This document shows positions 7,236-31,403 of a DNA stretch of 32,891 nt, in pieces (position 1 is the first letter of the stretch; each line of letters opens with the position of its first letter). The translations under genes and the position numbers were made by a program. Under the pieces are notes generated by a model. The model was given only the letters and a program-made list of their open reading frames with translations. It did not search any database and had not been told where the DNA came from. This DNA comes from a virus. Location: positions 1 to 32,891 of the IMG/VR virus record IMGVR_UViG_3300044835_000065. One strand, written 5' to 3'.

Positions 7236-7969
7236 CCACCACCGCTATGCAAGCGGCTGACCTTCAATCCCGCGTTCAGCCTTGGCTGCTGGCGTGCTTC
7301 GGCGCCGAGATTTCGCGCGACAAGATCGAGCGCAATCATCGCTTTCTCGAAGAAGCGCTAGAGCTAGTGCAGGCGTGCGGCTGCACCGGGAGCGAGGCGC
7401 ATCAGCTCGTCGATTACGTTTTCGGACGCACGGTCGGCGAGCCATCGCAGGAGGCTGGCGGCGTGATGATCACCCTGGCGGCGCTCTGTCTCGCGCAGGA
7501 CATGGACATGCACGAGGCCGGCGAAACGGAACTGCGGCGCATCTGGATGAAGGTCGATCAGATCAGGGCGAAGCAGGCTGCAAAGCCGCGTCATTCGCCA
7601 TTGCCGGTAGCAACTCGGGACCGTGAAATGACCGCCCCGACCACGCCCCTATCGGCGGGAGTGAGTGAAACCCGCATCGCAAAACTGGAAGCCGCCCTAC
7701 GGGACGTGCGCGATGGCTTGCGTGCGCAGGCGGTCGGTCGCATGGAATGGCGCGTTGCCCGCGAGAACGGCGCTTACTGCATCAGTGACTCCCAGGAACA
7801 CGCGATCGATAAGTGGATCGCCGACCACCAAAGATACTGCGAGCGCGAAGGCTACCGGAAGGTCCACGTCCGCTACCTGAGCCCCAACGAAAACTACATG
7901 CGGGCGACTGCGGATTTTATCGACGCTGCGCTGAACGAGCAACATGCGGAACAGGATCAACCATGCTAG
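7232..7969 (+). CDS. MazG-like protein with extra C-terminal domain
   Basis: The gene encodes 245 residues. The N-terminal 125 residues follow the all-alpha nucleoside triphosphate pyrophosphatase pattern of phage MazG-like proteins: RFLEEALELVQACG with E40, E41 and E44, then VDYVFGRTVGEPSQEAGGVM with E74, then TLAALCLAQDMDMHEAGETE. The Asp normally found a few residues after the third Glu is not obvious, so activity is uncertain. The usual family ending KPRHSPLPV is at residues 118-126. Residues 133-245 form a second, unrecognised region with a Met (133) at its start. This suggests fusion with a former neighbour. The family removes or hydrolyses nucleotides; a role against alarmones is often proposed for phages. 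Confidence 0.72.
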   Translation: MTTTAMQAADLQSRVQPWLLACFGAEISRDKIERNHRFLEEALELVQACGCTGSEAHQLVDYVFGRTVGEPSQEAGGVMITLAALCLAQDMDMHEAGETELRRIWMKVDQIRAKQAAKPRHSPLPVATRDREMTAPTTPLSAGVSETRIAKLEAALRDVRDGLRAQAVGRMEWRVARENGAYCISDSQEHAIDKWIADHQRYCEREGYRKVHVRYLSPNENYMRATADFIDAALNEQHAEQDQPC

Positions 7970-28106: not shown

Positions 28107-29015
28107 TTAGTCCAGGCTGGCGATCTGCACGACTTTTTTCTCCTGCAGGCGCGTCGCGCCGTAGGTCGCCGTGATGTAGACCTGCCACGAATTGCGCTTG
28201 TCCGGGCGGCGGTCGATCGACGTCGTCACGTCGTTCCAGATGCCGAGCTTCATGCCCGACTTCGCCCACATCGGCGAGTAGCGCGTGCCGCTGATGTCGT
28301 TGACCGCGGACGAATCGTAGGCCGTGGTATCGGTGTACTCCACCTGCACGAAGTTCACGCCCATGAAACGGGAGATCGCGCCGTCGACCAGCACCGGCTT
28401 GCTGTTGTAGTCGAGGCTGATCATCTGCGCCTCGTTCAGCAGGTTGTCGCTGTCGGCGGAATTGATGACCATGTAAATCGGGTCGGTTTCGAAGTCGACG
28501 CCGTTGGCCTGCAGGATTTTCTTGCCGGCGCGCAGCTTGCTGATGTTGAGGCCGGTGGCCGCAGCGCCGCCCACGGTAGAGGCGACTTTCTGCCCGGCCG
28601 GAAAAGTGGTGCTGGTGGTGCCGTTCTCGCCGGTCATGCTGGTGGCGTAGAAGGCAGCGAGGATCACATCATCTTGCGCCCGTCGCATCGTTTCCACGCC
28701 GTTCATCACGTAGGGGCTCTGCGGGTCGATCAGCATGCGCAGGCGGTCCTGATTGTCGATCAGGTCGGCCCAGTCGAAGTCGGTGGGATAGGCCCAGCGC
28801 GCGTCGGACGGGGTGCTGATGAGGGGAGTGTCGGAGTGGCGGGCGAGGTTCTTGACCGGCTTGACGGGTCCGAACTGCTCGACCACTTTCGCGCCCTTGC
28901 CGTAGAAGTTCTCGACCATGACGTAGGGAGCGAGCTTGCCGCCCTTTTGTTGCAGCAGCATTTCGACGTTCGTCGTGTACTGCTGGACGAATGCACTGGT
29001 GATCTGGAATGACAT
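28107..29015 (-). CDS. Major capsid protein
   Basis: The gene encodes 302 residues; ATG 29015 follows TTTGGAGG. It fits the capsid family of the BPP-1-like podoviruses (HK97-type fold): MSFQITSAFVQQYTTNVEML at the N-terminus, then SDARWAYPTDFDWADLIDNQ, then IYMVINSADSDNLLNEAQMI, and near the C-terminus KLGIWNDVTTSIDRRPDKRN. The strong ribosome-binding site and 111-bp leader fit high expression. It is separated from the scaffold gene by the opposite-strand cassette. Confidence 0.86.
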   Translation of the reverse strand: MSFQITSAFVQQYTTNVEMLLQQKGGKLAPYVMVENFYGKGAKVVEQFGPVKPVKNLARHSDTPLISTPSDARWAYPTDFDWADLIDNQDRLRMLIDPQSPYVMNGVETMRRAQDDVILAAFYATSMTGENGTTSTTFPAGQKVASTVGGAAATGLNISKLRAGKKILQANGVDFETDPIYMVINSADSDNLLNEAQMISLDYNSKPVLVDGAISRFMGVNFVQVEYTDTTAYDSSAVNDISGTRYSPMWAKSGMKLGIWNDVTTSIDRRPDKRNSWQVYITATYGATRLQEKKVVQIASLD

Positions 29016-29077
29016 AGCGCCTCCAAAGCAAGAATAAAAACTTCCTGTTTCGAAGGCTTGCCACTACTGACGCGGAG

Positions 29078-29103
29078 GCAGTGAGCCCTACCCGCAGTGA
29101 GCC
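29078..29103. repeat. Two direct copies of GCAGTGAGCC in the capsid leader
   Basis: GCAGTGAGCC occurs at 29078-29087 and 29094-29103, a 16-bp period, in the gap between the capsid gene and the next gene upstream. It could be a late-promoter activator site or part of the untranslated leader. The rest of the gap (29016-29126) holds the capsid ribosome-binding site and no recognised terminator. Confidence 0.45.
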
Positions 29104-29126
29104 ATTCTCGCGTTGAGCGTTGCGCG

Positions 29127-29327
29127 TTACGCCTGGTCTTTCCCAGCGTCCCCGGAGGCGATTACAGCCTTGCCCGGCTTCGGAAACTCAACGGTCTGAC
29201 GACCATCTGCTTCCAACCTGACGTATGACTCCAGTTCCATCGCGAACGCAACAACTTGCTCGGGAGTGAGACCGGGCCGGCACGTCAATCTCAACAATTC
29301 TATACGCACTTCATAAAGTTCGTTCAT
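29127..29327 (-). CDS. Small hypothetical protein at the cassette border
   Basis: The gene encodes 66 residues. ATG 29327 has GGAAAG at good spacing; the longer frame from 29366 would run through the promoter repeats and is less likely. The protein has a helix-turn-helix-like part (RLTCRPGLTPEQVVAFAMEL) and a basic tail (PKPGKAVIASGDAGKDQA). It diverges from the 202-residue gene of the cassette, so it may belong to that unit as a small partner, or just to the late operon. Confidence 0.5.
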   Translation of the reverse strand: MNELYEVRIELLRLTCRPGLTPEQVVAFAMELESYVRLEADGRQTVEFPKPGKAVIASGDAGKDQA

Positions 29328-29340
29328 TTTTTTCTTTCCA

Positions 29341-29369
29341 TTTGACACGCTATGCCAATTTGACATAGC
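29341..29369 (+). promoter_or_regulatory. Divergent promoter and operator candidate of the cassette
   Basis: TTTGACA occurs twice, at 29341-29347 and 29359-29365, exactly 18 bp apart. The first TTGACA is a consensus -35 with TAGCAT (29366-29371) as a possible -10 at 18 bp. An inverted repeat GCTATG-N9-CATAGC spans 29349-29369. The layout suits a regulated promoter driving the 202-residue gene to the right. A further direct repeat, GCCGTGGCA at 29381-29389 and 29394-29402, precedes the ribosome-binding site. Confidence 0.5.
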
Positions 29370-29421
29370 ATCCTATTTAAGCCGTGGCATTCCGCCGTGG
29401 CAGCACTGGAGGTACTGAGGC

Positions 29422-30030
29422 ATGAGTAAGGTCGAGGCAATCAGAAAGACGGAGCCAACCAACGGCGGAGCCGAAACGATCTCAGCGAGCGAGCCGTACA
29501 GCGTTGTCGTCGCGCTCGAAGGTTCGGCGGATTTTCTCTTTCATCGCTGGAATGCGGAAGCGGTGGATACGAAGGCGAAAGCCGCCAAAAACAGCGTCGC
29601 CAAGAAAACGGATGACATTGAGTCCTACGTGTATCGGGATGACGCGGGTCGGCTGTGCATCCCCGGCGAGTATCTCCGGCAGGCGATTATTCACGCAGCG
29701 AAGTTTCGGCAAGACCCGCGCTCGCCGCGAAAGAGCGCGATGGATCTGTACAAGGCGGGCGTCGTGTCCCTGACCGCGCTGGCATCGCTCGGGAAGGTGA
29801 ATTGGGACTACGAGGACAAGAGGCGCGTAGTGATCCAACGCAGCGGCGTGAATCGCACGCGACCGGCCATGAAGGTTGGCTGGAAGGCGGAATTTCAATT
29901 GATGGTGATGCTGCCGGAATACATCGCCCGCGCCGATCTGCAAGACGTGATCGGCAACGCGGGCAGGTTGATCGGCCTCGGCGATTTTCGGCCGACGTAT
30001 GGTCGGTTCAACATCGTAAAGTTTGAATGA
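29422..30030 (+). CDS. Unknown phage protein, cassette core (RWN / DFRPTYGRF type)
   Basis: The gene encodes 202 residues; ATG 29422 follows GGAGG (29408-29412). It lies on the strand opposite to the late operon. Recognisable blocks are FLFHRWNAEAVDTKAKAAKN (38-57), RLCIPGEYLRQAIIHAAKFR (77-96), QDPRSPRKSAMDLYKAGVVS (97-116), RVVIQRSGVNRTRPAMKVGW (135-154) and the ending IGLGDFRPTYGRFNIVKFE. I recall similar unannotated phage proteins but no assigned function. The Gly-rich GDFRPTYGRF end and the PGEYLRQAI helix are loosely like nucleic-acid-binding RAMP or Cas7 folds; that is a guess. A repeat array and an HTH gene follow it directly. Confidence 0.7.
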   Translation: MSKVEAIRKTEPTNGGAETISASEPYSVVVALEGSADFLFHRWNAEAVDTKAKAAKNSVAKKTDDIESYVYRDDAGRLCIPGEYLRQAIIHAAKFRQDPRSPRKSAMDLYKAGVVSLTALASLGKVNWDYEDKRRVVIQRSGVNRTRPAMKVGWKAEFQLMVMLPEYIARADLQDVIGNAGRLIGLGDFRPTYGRFNIVKFE

Positions 30031-30037
30031 AGATTTC

Positions 30038-30142
30038 GGCTTGGTATGGAGCGGTAGTGCGAGCTGGGGTCGGGTCGGGTTCGGTTTGATATGGAGTGGC
30101 TGGATGGGGTAAGGTCGTGAATGGCGAGGTGGGGCAAGGTAA
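30038..30142 (+). repeat. GGYNN pentanucleotide array, first block
   Basis: This holds 21 consecutive 5-bp units. In most, the first two bases are GG and the third C or T; the last two vary freely. The phase is strict (GG at positions 30038, 30043, 30048 and so on) with a few single-base departures. Five-base spacing is not a multiple of three, so it is not a coding repeat. Confidence 0.85.
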
Positions 30143-30144
30143 CG

Positions 30145-30182
30145 CAGTGGGTTGCCGATTCACAAGAGTCGGCCTCCCAGTG
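30145..30182 (+). other. Hairpin between the two pentanucleotide arrays
   Basis: The outer stem CAGTGGG (30145-30151) pairs with CCCAGTG (30176-30182) with one G-G mismatch. After a 2/2 internal loop, GCCGATT (30154-30160) pairs with AGTCGGC (30167-30173) with one G-U pair, leaving the loop CACAAG. It is the strongest simple hairpin in this cassette and breaks the GGYNN pattern exactly in the middle. No T-run follows. Confidence 0.7.
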
Positions 30183-30188
30183 CGAAGT

Positions 30189-30298
30189 GGCGAGGAAAGG
30201 CGTGGTGAGGAAAGGCTAGGCGAGGCAAGATCAGGCGCGGTGAGGCATGGTCGGGTGTGACGAGGTTTGGCCTGCAAAGGTTTGGCACGGCGAGGCTT
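30189..30298 (+). repeat. GGYNN pentanucleotide array, second block
   Basis: This holds 22 units with GG in most (30189, 30194, 30199 and so on), one base out of phase with the first block. Units such as GGCGA, GGTGA, GGCAC and GGTTT share only GGY. The last units form the ribosome-binding site (GGCGAGG) of the HTH gene at 30301. Confidence 0.87.
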
Positions 30299-30300
30299 TT

Positions 30301-30468
30301 ATGAGCGGTTCAGAACTAAAATTGTTGCGCAAGAAACTCGGCCTGTCGCTGGCGCAGGCCGCACGGCAGGTCGAGGTTTCTGCGCGAACGTGGGCACGGT
30401 GGGAAGCCGGGAATCAGAGAATTCCAGAGGGCGCGGTAAAGCTGTTCCGGATACTGAATCCAGGCTAG
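30301..30468 (+). CDS. Small helix-turn-helix protein (XRE-like)
   Basis: The gene encodes 55 residues. ATG 30301 follows GAGG inside the last repeat units. The sequence SELKLLRKKLGLSLAQAARQ followed by VEVSARTWARWEAGNQRIPE is a clear Cro/CI-type HTH with the usual Q-A-A and RWE pattern. At this length it is a single DNA-binding domain. It is a likely regulator of the cassette promoter. The stop falls in the stem of the hairpin at 30468-30491, and it converges on the scaffold gene. Confidence 0.75.
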   Translation: MSGSELKLLRKKLGLSLAQAARQVEVSARTWARWEAGNQRIPEGAVKLFRILNPG

Positions 30469-30491
30469 CGCCTTCATTTTCTTGAAGGCGC
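30468..30491. terminator. Hairpin between convergent HTH and scaffold genes
   Basis: GCGCCTTCA (30468-30476) and TGAAGGCGC (30483-30491) form a perfect 9-bp stem with a 6-nt loop TTTTCT. It overlaps the last codons of the scaffold gene and the stop of the HTH gene. It could end the rightward cassette transcript or slow late transcription towards the capsid gene. There is no T-run on either side, so factor-independent termination is not certain. Confidence 0.5.
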
Positions 30492-31403
30492 GCCCAGGGA
30501 TTCGCGATATTGGTCCATCGTCATGCCGGCGGCAGCGGCTTGCAGCGAGGCCATGCGGTTTTTCGCGTCCACGTCGCCGGAAAGGTACTTCGCCGTGAAT
30601 TCCTTGTCCTTTTTCAACTCGTCCAACGCTGCGGCAGCGCCGGTGGCGGTCATCCCGAAGGTTTTCGAGCCTTCGCCGGTGACCACATGCTCGCCCATCG
30701 CCTCGCCGATGGCGGCAAAGCGGGTCAGCAGGGTCTTGGTGCCGAATTTTTCCTCGAAGGCGAGCAATTCCTCGTTATTGAAGCCGAATTGCTTGGCGGC
30801 GCGGCGCCCGAGCTCCAGCTTGGCGTCGAAGAGCGCACCTTGCTCTGTTTTGAACTGCTCAAGTTCCTGCGCGTTGCGGGTGGTGACCGCCTGCGTCTGC
30901 GCGGCGTTCATTCGACCGCCATATTCCTGATACCACTTGGCGATCTCGTTGGCCTGGCGCGTCGACAGGCCTGCGGCATGGAATGCTTTGGAGGCATCGG
31001 CGACGAAACCCTTATCGCCTTCGGCGGGCGCGGGCAACTTGTAGCCTTCCGGCGTTTCCGGACGGCCGGTCGCTTTGTAGAGCCTGGCCCAACCTTCTGC
31101 GTCAGCCTCGCCCTTGGGCAATACCACCTTGTCGCCGCCCAGCAGCTTTTCAAGGTGCATGTAGCCGTTCGCCACATCCTTGGGCGTCGCCCACTGCTTA
31201 CCCTGCACGTAGGTTTTCAGCGCCGGATCGTCAATGCTGTCCACCCATGTCTTTGTTTCGGCCGCTGCGGCCGCGGTGGTGACCGCAGAGAGCGAACTGG
31301 GCGCGGCAGTCGTCGTCGCGGCGGTGGTAGCCGGCGCGGCTGCCGCAGCACTCGCCGGGGCGGCGGTGGCTGGTTCACTCGATAGCAGAGCTGCTGCTGA
31401 CAT
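30474..31403 (-). CDS. Scaffold protein
   Basis: The gene encodes 309 residues. It has an Ala/Thr/Pro-rich, disordered N-terminus (1-50). A helical region follows with WVDSIDDPALKTYVQGKQWA, KDVANGYMHLEKLLGGDKVV and LPKGEADAEGWARLYKATGR, then ETPEGYKLPAP, typical of podovirus capsid assembly scaffolds. The C-terminus is charged helix (DELKKDKEFTAKYLSGDVDA). It overlaps the previous gene by 29 bp. In most relatives the capsid gene follows at once; here about 1.4 kb of other genes intervene. Confidence 0.8.
   Translation of the reverse strand: MSAAALLSSEPATAAPASAAAAAPATTAATTTAAPSSLSAVTTAAAAAETKTWVDSIDDPALKTYVQGKQWATPKDVANGYMHLEKLLGGDKVVLPKGEADAEGWARLYKATGRPETPEGYKLPAPAEGDKGFVADASKAFHAAGLSTRQANEIAKWYQEYGGRMNAAQTQAVTTRNAQELEQFKTEQGALFDAKLELGRRAAKQFGFNNEELLAFEEKFGTKTLLTRFAAIGEAMGEHVVTGEGSKTFGMTATGAAAALDELKKDKEFTAKYLSGDVDAKNRMASLQAAAAGMTMDQYRESLGAPSRK

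Follow-up and report, generated by a model that had tools for sequence, protein, structure and literature searches.

A GGY/NN pentamer array beside a RAMP gene in a viral genome is very probably a VIPR locus, and arrays of its relatives support a gapped guide code

We analysed a stretch of viral DNA of 32,891 nt (the whole of it is called the window below), taken from the IMG/VR record IMGVR_UViG_3300044835_000065. Near the end of the window, a gene for a small RAMP protein (P0001) is followed by two blocks of pentamers of the form GGY/NN, which are separated by a hairpin, and then by a short gene for a helix-turn-helix protein (P0002). The array begins 7 nt past the stop of P0001 and ends at the start of P0002. 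The features of this locus are listed in Table 1. In addition, the capsid protein of the window was nearest to Vibrio, Pelagibacter and other phage records, at less than 60% identity.

Table 1. Features of the locus in the window (positions are those of the window)
Feature	Position	Strand	Basis
Putative promoter-like site ahead of vipr (TTGACA, spacer of 18 nt, TAGCAT)	29342..29371	+	One match in a consensus scan (0.4 expected); weak
vipr, predicted RAMP protein of 202 residues (P0001; phrog_4652)	29422..30030	+	36pp_D profile match; AlphaFold2 model; SUSP1 control
Guide block 1	30038..30142	+	21 GGY/NN units; phase test and arrays in relatives
vrRNA 3′ tail hairpin	30143..30184	+	Stems of 4 bp and 8 bp around a 2x2 internal loop, capped by a tetraloop; base lengthened by 4 bp in the window
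Guide block 2	30189..30298	+	22 units; phase test; without recognised tail
Xre-type helix-turn-helix protein of 55 residues (P0002), candidate VIPR accessory gene	30301..30468	+	Pfam HTH_31, E = 8.9e-11

VIPR (Viral Interference Programmable Repeat) has been described as a phage RAMP protein together with vrRNAs, which consist of GGY/NN repeats and carry a structured 3′ tail (PMC13142463). The NN letters of the vrRNA pair with double-stranded DNA, one base being skipped per unit, and the system is directed against rival phages; the accessory genes are termed vap, and seven types have been published (PMC13142463). We found no literature on VIPR beyond this 2026 preprint.

P0001 had no match in Pfam. 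It is a member of phrog_4652 (E = 6.9e-18), and PHROGs gives this family no function, whereas one is proposed here. The profile of the clade matched one solved chain, PDB 36pp_D, which is titled ‘SUSP1 Vipr protein’ (E = 1.9e-11). Furthermore, the AlphaFold2 model of P0001, made with 33 sequences, had a mean pLDDT of 83.9 and the fold of a Cas7/Csm3-type RAMP; among the matches listed by Foldseek for this model, all 50 were of the Cas7, Csm3 or Cas7-11 type. VIA-align placed the model at Z = 12.1 to 8yhe_F, a subunit of a type VII complex (4.0 Å over 156 residues). Eight positions near the C-terminus (G181, G185, D188, R190, P191, G194, R195 and F196) were invariant in 34 sequences, and the vipr gene of the window is intact, with every clade-invariant residue. 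A single-domain RAMP with an RRM core and a G-loop, as in Vipr, was found in P0001 by profile and model. As a positive control, the clade profile was run against the SUSP1 record; among 109 long frames in 50 kb, its sole match was the SUSP1 vipr (E = 7.2e-15), a gene flanked by GGYNN arrays. Judged by profile and predicted fold, P0001 appears to be a Vipr protein, that is, a single-domain RAMP related to Cas7. One Vipr relative, in phage DSL-LC04 (L060, 6001-6618; OR003939), is annotated as ‘helix-turn-helix transcriptional regulator’, and the RAMP model of the family disagrees with this annotation.

The helix-turn-helix neighbour P0002 is not common to the clade: among 195 vipr loci, a gene of this type was found only in the window and in L058, in both cases adjoining the array. 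P0002 also matched the Aca2/YdiL model (E = 5.1e-06), and the Aca2/YdiL family includes anti-CRISPR-associated regulators.

The two blocks of the array keep a 5-nt register. GG was present in 16 of the 21 units of block 1 (GGY in 14) and in 19 of the 22 units of block 2 (GGY in 17), with five and three units departing from it; the pooled values were 35/43 for GG and 31/43 for GGY. The best 5-nt phase contained 16 GG in block 1 and 19 in block 2. The shuffled blocks averaged 7.1 and 6.0, with maxima of 11 and 10, and for each block the observed count was reached by none of 2000 dinucleotide-preserving shuffles. When GG/CC periods from 3 to 12 were scanned over the whole window, period 5 peaked at the array, with nothing comparable elsewhere at 5 nt. 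The other strong peaks of the scan, of period 3/6 at about 1120-1400, belong to a different simple repeat. Here, a 6-bp unit (CGCAGC) recurs about 44 times, with 89% matches, at 1136-1398 within an ORF at 564-1502, and this gives a long alanine-rich stretch.

A preliminary description of this DNA, made from its letters, had called the 5-bp GG pattern of the 43 units strict. The period and the register are real, but the word is slightly too strong for the counts given above. Its view that selection acts on the period and on GG, and not on copied repeats, was judged right. Meanwhile, block 2 starts 151 nt after the start of block 1, thus the phase is shifted by one base; the described reset around a middle hairpin is therefore real, as is the hairpin. 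In both blocks, stops interrupt each of the three forward frames. The array is thus non-coding in the sense direction, as had been stated, and a coding repeat was rejected.

The same period was found in related loci. With P0001 as the query, 58 viral loci were obtained. Their gene strands were segmented with a hidden-Markov model for GG spaced by 5 nt, and 57 of the loci had an array adjoining the gene; the exception was L053, which had the lowest identity in that listing. The preliminary description had staked its reading on an excess of the 5-nt period in homologous regions, and these arrays provide it. An array was present in phage DSL-LC04, too. The arrays of the clade precede the gene, follow it or flank it, and reach about 650 nt. 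In the Fourier analysis of GG spacing, which had been suggested as a check, the period-5 power of GG was at least 8.5 in 56 of the 58 viral loci and that of CC never exceeded 8.0, thus G lies on the strand of the gene. This statement about the strand rests on the Fourier analysis and on an array-first search.

In the array-first search, viral contigs were searched for ten GGYNN units without protein information, and at least 120 stretches were found. Among the 120 array-found loci listed, the clade profile detected a Vipr relative in 71, and all 71 had a co-oriented array within 2 kb. Of the remaining 49, five do not pass the array filter, and some are at the edge of their contig. These 49 loci (among L061-L180) have a GGYNN array and no match to the Vipr profile, and several of them are not at contig edges; such arrays may adjoin more distant Vipr types. 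The consensus over 11,105 units was G 93%, G 92% and Y 90%, with NN near uniform, and these percentages are upper values because the filter for blocks is biased towards GG and Y. For vipr genes with full flanks, 104 of 107 had an array, a count that pools protein-found and array-found loci and is thus biased, whereas that of the 58 loci is unbiased. The three genes without an array by the filter were in L053, L235 and L286. In L286, one block (7780-7849) close upstream of the vipr match was missed by the filter rule, and L053 and L235 are vipr relatives without a detected array nearby. The phrog_4652 clade gave 321 viral relatives in one scan, and members were also found in genomes titled Pseudomonadota, Cyanobacteria, Planctomycetes and Bacillota.

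The hairpin between the blocks folded at −28.9 kcal/mol (z = −7.2) and was the most stable of six tails folded. Tails that fold alike were found between blocks in L019, L020, L024 (two) and L028. They share an outer stem, a 2x2 internal loop, 8 bp and a tetraloop, and one L024 copy closes the internal loop further. In the six tails, compensatory changes occurred at 6 of 12 pairs and 95.8% of cells pair; the covariation was 0.467, whereas shuffled versions gave 0.144 and slid versions did not exceed 0.133. In addition, a covariance model was searched against 113 sources, which are a selection of loci. Besides the six founders, it found seven copies with E < 0.03 in L015, L024, L037, L039 and L040, and one further copy in L257 (E = 5.7e-05). 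In L257 the parts follow in the same order as in the window, with vipr first, then a block, a tail, a second block and an ORF. Block 1 is closed by the hairpin, which is a conserved vrRNA 3′ tail. Given the covarying fold, the copies in relatives and the layout of L257, the break of phase is best read as the point where one vrRNA would end and the next block would start; the phase would restart after the hairpin because the hairpin ends the first guide block.

The guide code was tested on 291 sequences (2.97 Mb, window included) with the arrays masked, using 797 distinct blocks and skips of 0-3 bases; the test omits L181-L183, which match a window guide, and uses only non-duplicate blocks with at least six distinct NN. 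A score of at least 20 was obtained by 9 of the 797 blocks for a skip of 1, against 0, 0 and 1 for skips of 0, 2 and 3, and against 0, 1, 0, 0, 0, 0, 0 and 0 in eight shuffles of the unit order. At a score of at least 22, there were five blocks for skip 1 and none in all 11 controls. Residual unmasked array would give matches such as the lone one for skip 3. A smaller first test of guides and targets had been only suggestive (score of at least 18, 2 against 0, 0 and 0). Furthermore, the skipped base was codon position 3 in all nine guide matches. For eight of them the position was taken from the longest frame and for the ninth (L203 on L266) from the exonuclease frame, and L209 and L281 were coordinate-checked.

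There were seven distinct targets, because three of the nine blocks (in L188, L193 and L197, related Phycisphaerae loci) match one gene. The targets were a PDDEXK exonuclease gene (L266, phrog_412), a DUF669/SSB-like gene (L189, phrog_6015), a helicase gene (L279, phrog_16), an excisionase/AlpA-like gene (L209, phrog_66), a tail-like ORF (L281, phrog_584), and the vipr genes of L229 (22/22 bases, antisense) and L230. The test DNA was phage-rich by construction, so this list does not give the share of guides aimed elsewhere. These observations support that in this clade the NN letters read DNA with a 1-nt skip, that the wobble base is skipped, and that phages target phages, including rival vipr genes. 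Guides against other VIPR systems were reported previously, too (PMC13142463). As a separate observation, guides of L190 (score 21.5) and L202 (17.5, near noise) both decode to the excisionase/AlpA-like gene of L209, at about 2095-2391. A guide of L148 against the vipr of L008 was not counted; its score of 17 is at noise level, and the skipped base falls at codon position 1. Substitution rates by unit position were unusable, since blocks had been paired by NN identity and many of the pairs are chance.

From the array, the tail, the fold and the clade-wide association observed here, and from the 1-nt code and the phage targets observed in relatives, we take the region to be a VIPR locus, with a probability of about 0.94; for the window copy, we infer its transcription, binding and silencing. 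In such a locus, the periodic DNA would be transcribed in the direction of the gene to give the vrRNA. The GGY of each pentamer would be the step that binds protein and the NN would be the guide letters. Vipr subunits would coat the vrRNA, one per pentamer, and the NN pairs would read double-stranded DNA with the sense-strand pattern N1N2xN3N4x..., where the one base skipped per unit is usually the wobble base. Such binding would then silence genes of competing phages or prophages. The preliminary description had guessed at a filament of the 202-residue protein, with one protomer per 5 nt of single-stranded nucleic acid. This came close, and it fits a RAMP on GGY/NN RNA. Its interpretation is therefore supported in part, namely for the period, the non-coding nature and the filament, but the guide payload of NN and the identity of the hairpin as the vrRNA tail were missed.

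VIPR was described only in 2026, and until now its code had been tested mainly on two type II clades. What is new here is an independent computational confirmation of the 1-nt skip, of wobble skipping and of phage-on-phage targets in the phrog_4652 clade. A large VIPR clade is thereby opened, and a family of unknown function gains a testable mechanism.

The guides of the window itself were also searched for targets. In viral contigs, the 9-unit patterns of block 1 gave three stretches for units 12-20 and one for units 2-10, while those of the middle and the end of block 2 gave no match. These four exact matches were set aside as chance, as their extension outside the searched units was at about chance level. 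The decoded peptides of both blocks had no match by tblastn in phages, 11-unit patterns with three mismatches gave 0/50 twice in 50 phage records, and block 1 gave 0/7 in seven genomes. Matches with two mismatches, each in 1 of 398 genomes and in parA-like and dnaA-like host genes, were judged to be chance, without extension. In view of these searches and of the loss of GG in 8 of the 43 units, the array could be a decaying remnant, which once guided and now lacks a target or expression; block 1, with five non-GG units of 21, may be decaying. However, the vipr gene is intact, the tail hairpin is more stable than the other five folded, and databases would not be expected to include targets that lie in unsampled phages. 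We consider a remnant unlikely.

The position of the arrays raises a second alternative. In 52 of 91 genes, no more than 30 nt separate the end of the last upstream array from the vipr start, and in 43 of 93 genes no more than 20 nt separate the end of the last downstream array from the next ORF; both counts pool protein-found and array-found loci. In the window, GGCGAGG of block 2 stands 5 nt before the start codon of P0002 and is a putative ribosome-binding site. Such a placement would be understandable if the array were a cis-acting leader, with Vipr coating the mRNA of its own gene and of the next gene and stopping translation, and with NN being irrelevant. However, leaders carry trans guides, too. 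The group of L013, L015 and L019 has a leader block without a tail, and the tail-less leader guide common to L011, L013 and L015 matches a phage gene in L296 (phrog_2480). For L013 this match covers 20/20 bases with the wobble skipped, and the preceding unit of L019 matches as well; thus a tail-less leader can act as a trans guide. The match falls in the C-terminal motif RTVKTGKPTYK of the phrog_2480 protein. This motif is kept by the phrog_2480 relatives, which lie upstream of vipr in L184, L185 and L294.

A leader in which NN has no role is thus quite unlikely, but cis-leader and trans-guide roles could coexist. Any further cis role of the leader is speculation. We suggest, as a doubtful idea, that Vipr loading on the tail-less leader of an mRNA, either that of vipr or that of the gene after the array, might both make a guide complex and stop synthesis, which would be a self-limiting feedback. 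If true, the same RNA would be mRNA leader and trans guide, and such a feedback is absent from the main text of PMC13142463.

Another possibility is that the array is a site of DNA packaging, replication or loading, where a recombinase or an SSB-like filament would nucleate on single-stranded DNA of the phage at GG every 5 nt. Steps of 5 nt are known for some annealing proteins, and the arrays of L184 and L185 are near replication-module genes. However, the neighbour is a Cas7-type RAMP, the NN letters match genes of other phages at a 1-nt skip far beyond the controls, a covarying RNA hairpin ends the blocks, and the arrays are co-oriented with the gene. A loading site is thus very improbable. 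Finally, G-quadruplexes or simple slippage repeats, which the high G content and the GG tracts might suggest, are hardly credible given the fixed 5-nt register with two free, hypervariable letters, a tandem repeat finder report at the array of a sole 43-nt stretch of period 15, a whole-array RNA fold only modestly better than shuffles (z = −2.95, against −7.2 for the tail alone) and, for the clade, the guide-target matches, so that G-rich RNA structure as the main function, considered in the preliminary description, is unsupported.

Among the known systems, the type II VIPR of Escherichia phage SUSP1 (PMC13142463, PDB 36pp, KT454805) is like the locus of the window in several respects. Both have a small phage RAMP gene with a C-terminal GxGDxRPxxGRF, and both have gene-strand GGY/NN arrays upstream and downstream, a structured tail after a block and the 1-nt skip code, where the likeness in arrays and code holds at the level of the clade. 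However, the tail follows each block in SUSP1, whereas in the window it follows block 1 only and is of a different kind. The identity between SUSP1 Vipr and P0001 is low; SUSP1 was not among the tblastn matches of P0001 in the phage collection. In addition, the blocks of the window are longer, with 21-22 units against the 9-16 repeats reported (PMC13142463), and the Xre helix-turn-helix gene after the array is unlike SUSP1 VIPR. A hammerhead-interspersed VIPR array was rejected, since no Rfam hammerhead was found at 28500-31000 with E up to 5; no hammerhead ribozyme reached the Rfam gathering score in 20 related loci.

The Cas7/Csm3 backbone of class 1 CRISPR (types III and VII) shares the RAMP fold (Z up to 12.1), and its subunits coat the guide RNA at a regular step. 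However, class 1 CRISPR has a 6-nt step and a contiguous spacer (PMC13142463), whereas the window has pentamer units. Next to the array of the window, neither a CRISPR array nor any further cas gene was seen. A class 1 CRISPR array of identical repeats and unique spacers was rejected, as there are pentamers only and no long identical repeats. Meanwhile, long continuous arrays in L044 (3127-3678) and L014 (3092-3539) include rare units of 8 nt or units shifted by 3 nt, which move the phase and are possibly marks of guide boundaries.
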